Shown: one piece after another, positions 10,883 through 13,256 of the stretch
Layout: each line of letters starts with the position of its first letter
How positions within the stretch are numbered: the stretch's first letter is position 1
Source: Porticoccus hydrocarbonoclasticus MCTG13d
GTDB lineage: Bacteria; Pseudomonadota; Gammaproteobacteria; Pseudomonadales; Porticoccaceae
Reading direction: 5' to 3'
DNA length: 64,000 nt
NCBI RefSeq assembly: GCF_000744735.1
Contig: NZ_JQMM01000001.1
Coordinates: 2,294,001 to 2,358,000, forward strand
Notes under the pieces: generated by a model
Told to the model about the DNA's origin: nothing
The model's input: the letters and a program-made list of their open reading frames with translations, nothing else
Databases searched by the model: none
Translations under genes and position numbers: made by a program

Positions 10883-12514
10883 TTAGACGACCGAAGCACC
10901 GTCCATGAAGGGGCCATCCACGCAGATTCTTCGCCCGTCCGGGGCGGCACAGGCACCACAGAGGCCAACGCCGCATTTGGTCAGGTAATCAATGGCACTG
11001 AAGATCTGATCATCGCCGCAGAACTCCCTTTCCACGGCCACGGCGGCGCGCACCATAGGGGACGGCCCGCAATTGTAGAAAATGAGGTTTTTTCGTTCTG
11101 CCGGGGGCAGCTGTTGTAAATACTCCCGCAGCAATTCGGTGACAAAACCGTGAAAGCCCTCGCTGCCATCATCGGTGGAGACATGCACCGGGGCAATCTT
11201 GCGGCACTCGTCGAGGAAATACAGCCGCTCCGCGGTGCGTGCGCCGGTAAAAATTTCACTGTTGGGGAAATCCCTCGCCAGCTGGTAAACCGCCGCGAGA
11301 CCGGTGCCACCACTGACAGTAATGATTTTGGCGCCGGCTGGCGGGGCAACGGCCATGCCGTGGGGGCCGCGCACATAAGCTTCAGTGCCGGGCTGCAGTG
11401 ACATCAACTCGTGGGTAAACAACCCCACATCAATCACCGCCAGCGAGAAAGGGTCGTCGGTGAGAGCCGAGAACGGTTTTTCACCCACCCCCGGTATCCA
11501 TAAAAAGACAAACTCACCAGCCTGTACATCCACCTTGCGGTCAAAGGTGAGGATGCAGATATCGTCCGTTACCCGCTCATTGGACACCAGTATCACGGGG
11601 CGGAACTGCATATCCACATCGTAGCGAATCATCTGCTCCGCAGCGTTGCTGCCCTGCGCCATGTCGCGCTCCAGGGTACGGAAATACTCGCCCATTTCGT
11701 CGGTGGTCAGGCCAATCAGCGCGGAACCCACACCGACAATATCGGCACCGGCATCGCGGAAAGCCCGCACATCATCAGCACTGCTGACGCCGCCGCAACC
11801 GATGATGGGACAATCCACCGCCTCGGCCATTTCCCGCACGCATTTCAGGCCGATAGGCAGAACACCCTTACCGGACATGCCGCCGGAACCGTGACTCAGC
11901 ACCGGATGGCCGTGTGACGAAGTGTAACCGGGCCCCACGGTATTGATCGCGCAGAGCGCATCGGCTCCACCGGCCACGGCTGCTCTGGCGATCTCGGCAA
12001 TATTCGGTGTATTGGGCGTGAGCTTGGGGATCACCGGGATATTCACCGCAGCCTTGACCGCTGCGGTGATCTGGCGAACCAGTTCCGGATCCTGGCCCAT
12101 TGCCATACCGTAACCCTTGGCGTGGGGACAGGACAGATTCAGCTCCAACCCATCAGATACCGGGGCGACAATTTTGGCCACCTCAACAAATTCCTCGACA
12201 CTGCCGCCAAAAATGGAGGTGAGCAGGAAGCGATCTTCCGGCACCCGCAGGGTTGCCAACTGGGCAGCGAGCTGTTCGGCACCGGGATTGGTGAGTCCTA
12301 CCGCATTCACGAAACAACCGGGCGCATACTGGCTGATCACGGGCTCCCGGTAACCGGACCTCGGGGTCAGACCGACACTCTTTGTCGTGATAACACCGAC
12401 TTCGGGCATGGTGTCAAAAATACGCTGAATAATGGATGTGGCCGTGGTCACAATACCGGAAGGAATGGTGTACGGGGCGGTAATCTGCTTGGTAAGAAAG
12501 GGTACTTTTGACAT
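10883..12514 (-). CDS. Fused dihydroorotate dehydrogenase-like (PyrD) and PyrK-like electron-transfer protein
   Basis: One 543-residue chain joins two normally separate subunits. Residues 1-300 are a class 1 DHODH-type FMN barrel: TTKSVGLT (K45), NAVGLTNPG (N70), NLSCPH with a candidate catalytic C129. Residues 310-490 are a ferredoxin-reductase-type FAD/NAD module (VSGGTGLAAVYQLA). The tail CGVGLCGAC...C (C514, C519, C522, C531) matches the PyrK [2Fe-2S] site. The expected reaction is NAD-linked oxidation of dihydroorotate. The His after SCP replaces the Asn of PyrD type 1B and resembles dihydropyrimidine dehydrogenase, so another dihydropyrimidine substrate is possible. Start at MSKVPFL; miaE lies 76 bp upstream on the same strand. 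Confidence 0.85.
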   Translation of the reverse strand: MSKVPFLTKQITAPYTIPSGIVTTATSIIQRIFDTMPEVGVITTKSVGLTPRSGYREPVISQYAPGCFVNAVGLTNPGAEQLAAQLATLRVPEDRFLLTSIFGGSVEEFVEVAKIVAPVSDGLELNLSCPHAKGYGMAMGQDPELVRQITAAVKAAVNIPVIPKLTPNTPNIAEIARAAVAGGADALCAINTVGPGYTSSHGHPVLSHGSGGMSGKGVLPIGLKCVREMAEAVDCPIIGCGGVSSADDVRAFRDAGADIVGVGSALIGLTTDEMGEYFRTLERDMAQGSNAAEQMIRYDVDMQFRPVILVSNERVTDDICILTFDRKVDVQAGEFVFLWIPGVGEKPFSALTDDPFSLAVIDVGLFTHELMSLQPGTEAYVRGPHGMAVAPPAGAKIITVSGGTGLAAVYQLARDFPNSEIFTGARTAERLYFLDECRKIAPVHVSTDDGSEGFHGFVTELLREYLQQLPPAERKNLIFYNCGPSPMVRAAVAVEREFCGDDQIFSAIDYLTKCGVGLCGACAAPDGRRICVDGPFMDGASVV

Positions 12515-12590: not shown

Positions 12591-13256
12591 CTACGCGAGA
12601 GTACCCATCGATACAACCTCGGACAACCCTCTGTCCGAGGTTACAGGCGCACCGGAATGAAAGCGGAACTCACTGTCCGGCGTTTCCACCAGAGACCGCT
12701 CTTCCCGCCGGAAAACAGCGAGACGCTCGTTCACTTCTTTCGCACCACCAGCCTGGAGGGCGAGGTCGAGATAATCCCGATAGTGCCGTCCCTCGGAGGT
12801 GAGCAACGACTGGTAAAAATTTTGCAGCTCGGGATCCAGGAAGGGTGCCACTCTGGCAAAACGTTCACAGGAGCGGGCCTCGATAAAGGCGCCGACAATC
12901 AGGGTATCCAGCAATTTCGCCGGTTCATGGGTGCGCACCTTGCCGCGCAATCCCGCCGCGTAGCGGGCGGCACTGATCGCACGATACTCGATACCGCGCT
13001 TTTGCATGATGGCAATCACCTGCTCGAAATGGCGCATTTCCTCCCGGGCCAGCCGTGACATTTTGTTGAGCAGCTCAAAATGGTCGATGTAGCGGTAAAT
13101 CAGGTTTAACGCCGTGCTGGCCGCTTTCTTCTCGCAGTTAGCATGATCTATCAGCAAAACAGCCTGATTTTCCGGTTTTATTGCCTCCTCGACCCAGCTG
13201 TCAGGGGTCGGACAGGGCAGGAAAGCCTGAATTTCATCGAGCGCGGATACTGCCAC
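12591..13256 (-). CDS. miaE: tRNA-(ms2io6A37) hydroxylase MiaE
   Basis: A 221-residue ferritin-like diiron oxygenase that hydroxylates the isopentenyl side chain of ms2i6A at tRNA position 37, using O2. Candidate iron ligands are seen in NCEKKAAS near residue 45, EEMRHFEQV near 80, EARSCERF near 130 and SEGRHYRDYL near 160. The N-terminus LDEIQAFLPCPTPDSWV is typical of the family. GTG start at 13256 with AAGG about 9 nt upstream. It sits between a GST gene and the PyrD-PyrK-like gene on the same strand. Confidence 0.92.
   Translation of the reverse strand: MAVSALDEIQAFLPCPTPDSWVEEAIKPENQAVLLIDHANCEKKAASTALNLIYRYIDHFELLNKMSRLAREEMRHFEQVIAIMQKRGIEYRAISAARYAAGLRGKVRTHEPAKLLDTLIVGAFIEARSCERFARVAPFLDPELQNFYQSLLTSEGRHYRDYLDLALQAGGAKEVNERLAVFRREERSLVETPDSEFRFHSGAPVTSDRGLSEVVSMGTLA

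Follow-up and report, generated by a model that had tools for sequence, protein, structure and literature searches.

A conserved single-chain PyrD-PyrK fusion as the predicted dihydroorotate dehydrogenase of a Porticoccus-type gammaproteobacterium

Background

Which reaction can be expected from a protein that joins a PyrD-like and a PyrK-like part in one chain and carries an active-site histidine known from dihydropyrimidine dehydrogenase (DPD)? This question is raised by a gene of Porticoccus hydrocarbonoclasticus MCTG13d, located in a stretch of 64,000 nucleotides (contig NZ_JQMM01000001.1, positions 2,294,001 to 2,358,000) that is referred to as the window. A sequence-only reading of the window had pointed out the fusion and the histidine, and had regarded the former as unusual for gammaproteobacteria. 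Here, the gene, its relatives and its genomic setting were analysed computationally with regard to the role of the protein as a dihydroorotate dehydrogenase (DHODH) or as a DPD.

Results

Gene integrity and domain composition

The fusion gene lies on the minus strand at window positions 10883-12514, with an ATG at 12514 and a stop-to-stop frame of 567 codons that contains no internal stops. This ATG is supported as the start since the conservation among relatives begins only a few residues from it. The single chain of 543 residues proposed by the sequence-only reading is borne out by the intact frame and by the order of the Pfam domains DHO_dh (residues 4-267, E-value 2e-51), NAD_binding_1 (residues 400-491) and DHODB_Fe-S_bind (residues 513-542). 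That reading had also considered a frameshift artefact. PyrD and PyrK genes do adjoin in many bacteria, though with PyrK first, whereas 96 fused loci share the PyrD-first order, including those of the isolates Parahaliea, Seongchinamella, Halioglobus and HTCC2207. In addition, the dN/dS values of 0.045-0.076 obtained with the three relatives for which they were computable indicate a frame under purifying selection. A frameshift or misassembly that fused two neighbouring genes was therefore ruled out, its probability being negligible.

The FMN-barrel (PyrD-like) domain covers residues 1-287 (11654-12514, minus strand) according to Pfam, alignment, NCBIfam and the structure model. Aligned with related enzymes, it shows a catalytic loop N126-L-S-C129-P-H131 (12122-12139, minus strand), in which C129 takes the position of the class 1 base and H131 replaces the class 1B asparagine, and a DHODH-type substrate loop N70-A-V-G-L74 (12293-12307, minus strand), for which DPD has NIELI. 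A short low-confidence linker (about residues 288-303) leads to the PyrK-like module (about residues 304-543; 10886-11605, minus strand), which consists of an FNR-type FAD/NAD part and an Fe-S tail. The NAD-binding part identified by Pfam contains the motif GGTGLAAVYQ (11042-11317, minus strand), and the [2Fe-2S] ligands C514, C519, C522 and C531 (C-x4-C-x2-C-x8-C; 10922-10975, minus strand) are placed by Pfam and alignment exactly where they had been read from the sequence. The protein thus has the FMN barrel and the cysteine base in N-x-S-C-P of class 1B enzymes as well as the FAD/NAD module and four-cysteine [2Fe-2S] site of their PyrK partner, the latter as a fused domain. The PyrK half scores under the cut-off of NF000796, and its matches in the PDB are PyrK/NfnA-type chains. 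In the alignment, its four cysteines stand opposite the Asp(Cys)3 ligand set of the Nfn small subunit (PMC8097209).

Conservation among relatives

A single contig scan yielded 214 stretches encoding a relative, 80 of which were kept. Their hosts are Porticoccus, SAR92, Halieaceae (Haliea, Halioglobus, Parahaliea, Seongchinamella), Oceanicoccus and others. The fusion, the CPH motif and the four Fe-S cysteines are present in all 96 fused loci that were translated, some of which stem from a genome that is represented twice. Across these relatives, with identities down to 65%, 195 positions are invariant, among them H131, the Fe-S cysteines, the whole NAVGL loop, C129, N126, N191-T192, K45 and K164. 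The reading of NLSCPH in place of NLSCPN is therefore confirmed as a fixed feature of the family, while every canonical class 1B sequence translated has an asparagine after CP. The fusion is indeed widespread in relatives, as the sequence-only reading had considered. A published characterisation, the other half of that consideration, did not turn up: no description of the protein was found in the literature searched on PyrD-PyrK fusions, on DHODHs in these hosts and on class 1B phylogeny, and a prior description is possible as subscription journals were mostly uncovered. In two genomes (G015 contig 102, locus L016, and G179 contig 7), the fusion is split into two adjacent frames, which is probably an assembly error and possibly decay.

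Role in the genome

The genome of this Porticoccus-type gammaproteobacterium is a single contig and 99% complete. The fusion is its sole PF01180 protein, which settles the suggested search for a second pyrD, and PyrB, PyrC, PyrE and PyrF are encoded. No match to the D-hydantoinase/dihydropyrimidinase family was found in the genome. Since one pathway step is unfilled and one candidate enzyme is available, dihydroorotate oxidation is by far the likeliest role of the protein.

The absence of other pyr genes nearby, also noted from the sequence, was confirmed: a tblastn search with PyrB, PyrC, PyrE and PyrF of this genome against the 80 fusion loci placed none of them near the fusion. Operon context was dropped as functional evidence, given that the neighbours vary from clade to clade and pyr genes are absent from the vicinity. 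Directly upstream, on the same strand, lies a MiaE-like (tRNA hydroxylase) gene at window positions 12591-13256; its proximity to the fusion is restricted to Porticoccus-type loci, where about 1 kb often separates the two.

Distribution and exclusion of class 2 PyrD

In a sample of 294 genomes of the order, each at least 90% complete, the list of fusions was matched by hand to the table of PF01180 matches, and class 2 strength was defined as a match at E <= 1e-65. The fusion occurs in 36 of the 294 genomes, none of which has a PyrD of this strength (best PF01180 E-value no better than 9e-60); conversely, a PyrD of class 2 strength is found in 248 genomes, none of which has the fusion, although the genomes counted are not independent of each other. 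The remaining 10 genomes stay below the threshold and have neither kind, three being without any match and seven having a weaker one. All of the 30 strongest stand-alone matches carry N-x-SSPN, the serine-type class 2 loop, while for stand-alone PyrDs beyond these 30 the class was taken from the score alone. The two kinds coexist within one family and even under one genus code: G001 has no fusion and a stand-alone PyrD of 341 codons, in contrast to G000, G005 and G010 of the same genus, and G146 contrasts with the other g70 genomes in its kind of DHODH. Class 2 PyrD would share the pathway step with the fusion and serves as the alternative in its relatives, but it is membrane-bound, uses a serine base and has no PyrK part.

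The fusion was not seen outside the order: no genome but this one gave a match better than 2e-53 among 369 genomes of the class, and only this genome reached E <= 1e-65 among 398 genomes of the phylum, both samples including some members of the order. Among viral contigs, matches were weak only (23-29% identity), and a degenerate pattern written for E-x-N-x-[ST]-C-P-H-A was not matched exactly by any. Taken together, the surveyed genomes suggest that the fusion most likely takes the place of the quinone-linked class 2 enzyme in a mostly marine group of gammaproteobacteria that is limited to this order.

The earlier generalisation that gammaproteobacteria use class 2 PyrD proved too broad, as 164 of the 369 class genomes (163 besides this one) have a match of class 1B strength, confined to the FMN domain among the matches listed. 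All of the 28 class 1B-type gammaproteobacterial genes that were translated encode a NISCPN PyrD without a fused PyrK. Such stand-alone class 1B PyrDs are common in gammaproteobacteria outside the order (L173-L201). They share host class and FMN fold with the fusion and differ from it in their stand-alone frame of mostly 310-370 codons, in the motifs NISCPN and NAIGLQNPG, in a PyrK-like gene that stands apart, next to a dihydroorotase-like one, and in forming a separate clade. In L229, L230 and L232, a divergent PyrK-like protein of about 293 residues is encoded away from PyrD, beside a dihydroorotase-like gene.

Family scores, phylogeny and structure models

The L. lactis DHODB is the best sequence match of the FMN half (37% identity across the aligned region). 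With this class 1B enzyme (PyrDB plus PyrK), the fusion shares the FMN barrel, the cysteine base, the NAxGL loop and the FAD/NAD and [2Fe-2S] module. It differs in being a single chain with PyrD first, in the histidine for asparagine after CP, in a barrel shortened at its C-terminus by about 25-30 residues compared to canonical PyrDB, and in an Fe-S loop of C-x8-C that is longer in class 1B. The FMN half is nearest to PyrDB by NCBIfam scores but stays under every curated cut-off (NF005574, 241.6 of 269; TIGR01037, 242.9 of 270; archaeal NF041011, 213.6 of 330; PreA, 122.5 of 335), whereas canonical PyrDB proteins score 373-474 on NF005574.

The careful tree sets canonical class 1B, to which the unfused gammaproteobacterial sequences belong, apart from a group made up of PreA/DPD and the fused kind (99/98). 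When class 2 sequences serve as the outgroup, the fused kind groups with PreA/DPD at 92/81, in a sequence set without archaeal PyrD, a possible nearer relative. It is fairly firm from these trees that the fused kind would not be nested inside the sampled canonical class 1B groups. Its grouping with PreA/DPD is weak and at best suggestive: long branches meet there, and constraining the fused kind to class 1B costs only 2.0 log units and is not rejected (AU p = 0.165).

Two AlphaFold models have a good barrel (pLDDT 73.7 and 78.2; pTM 0.57 and 0.69). Residues 1-290 superimpose equally well with VIA-align on L. lactis DHODB (Z 30.5, rmsd 3.2, 277 aligned) and on pig DPD (Z 30.1, rmsd 3.1, 283 aligned). 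The pLDDT falls below 50 in the active-site loops 53-75, 130-137 and 193-213 as well as in the Fe-S loop 510-521, and the lid over H131 is modelled with low confidence. In view of these values and the pTM scores, the domain docking was set aside.

Discussion

The sole PF01180 protein, the presence of pyrB, pyrC, pyrE and pyrF and the mutual exclusion with class 2 PyrD together make the fusion most likely the DHODH of the cell. With a probability of roughly 0.87, it is a soluble, single-chain class 1B relative linked to NAD+, a prediction from genomes in which substrate, electron route and acceptor are derived from the fused gene and its conserved residues as well as from the observations just named. 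Dihydroorotate would be oxidised on the FMN of the N-terminal barrel with C129 as the base, and the electrons of FMN would reach NAD+ within one chain, first over the [2Fe-2S] cluster of the C-terminal part and then over FAD. This relay has been described for class 1B enzymes (PMC8097209), and all of its parts are found in one chain here. Judged by its sequence, the fusion is a conserved single-chain variant of the class 1B-type DHODH.

The comparison with DPD had been drawn from the histidine, which was placed correctly: H131 aligns with the histidine of pig DPD and Azospirillum PreA. However, it is not universal in PreA, as Salmonella PreA has a glutamine in the alignment. The pyrimidine-ring residues N609, N668, S670, N736 and T737 of pig DPD (PMC10970046) align with N70, N126, S128, N191 and T192 of the fusion, but they do not discriminate because most are common to DHODHs. 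Two sites do discriminate: the loop that follows N70 has the DHODH form (NAVGL versus NIELI), and residue 131 has that of DPD. In class 1 structures, the asparagine at the position equivalent to 131 contacts the substrate, and a histidine could do so too. Most likely, H131 would therefore stand in for this asparagine in holding or positioning the substrate while the reaction is unchanged.

A bacterial DPD that reduces uracil and thymine, or oxidises dihydrouracil, by means of a PyrK-type reductase module would also account for H131 and for the tree position, with 89 SH-aLRT for the PreA/DPD grouping in a larger quick tree; the FMN barrels are 29-35% identical and PreA/DPD is a possible sister group. 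To this extent the DPD-like hint has weak support, in that the trees place the FMN domain loosely beside PreA/DPD and not within canonical class 1B. Against it, the DHODH-type loop is kept instead of NIELI and the PyrK module takes the place of the GltD-like and [4Fe-4S] ferredoxin domains of DPD (PMC8097209), which Pfam did not find. The low score on the PreA model, the lack of a dihydropyrimidinase match and the exclusion of class 2 PyrD also speak against a DPD; if the fusion were one, no DHODH would be left in a genome that has pyrB, pyrC, pyrE and pyrF. DPD activity of the fusion thus appears unlikely, and an actual bacterial DPD of this build very improbable. The DPD flavour of the fusion is one residue and a weakly supported tree position.

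An alternative with somewhat more weight, though still improbable, is a DHODH whose PyrK module feeds quinone, ferredoxin or NADP+ instead of NAD+. It would fit the low NF000796 score, the matches of the PyrK half, which include Nfn/sulfhydrogenase-type chains next to PyrK, and the life of the hosts, which are mostly aerobic marine bacteria. Against this, NAD_binding_1 and the all-cysteine PyrK-type [2Fe-2S] tail are conserved, and an N-terminal extension as in class 2 was not seen in the sequence. Within the preferred reading as an NAD+-linked DHODH, it is conceivable, if doubtful, that the fusion represents a third lineage of NAD-linked DHODHs, distinct from both canonical class 1B and DPD, with an FMN domain near the root of PreA/DPD, histidine for asparagine and a single-chain FMN-FeS-FAD relay.

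As a predicted natural single-gene, NAD-linked DHODH, the fusion could serve as a model for this relay and could substitute for class 2 PyrD where independence from quinone is wanted, a purpose for which the two-gene pyrK-pyrD of L. lactis has been placed in Pseudomonas putida (PMC6805499). It also indicates that class 2 and soluble DHODHs have been exchanged inside one bacterial order, down to the genus level, and raises the question of whether one histidine separates dihydroorotate from dihydrouracil chemistry. Apart from the fused loci, PyrK-PyrD pairs were observed on alpha- and betaproteobacterial plasmids (L136, L138, L141) accompanied by a hydrolase, either Zn-dependent or of the hydantoinase/carbamoylase type, with orotate phosphoribosyltransferase, pyrF or pyrC nearby; these sets look like an orotate-use cassette.
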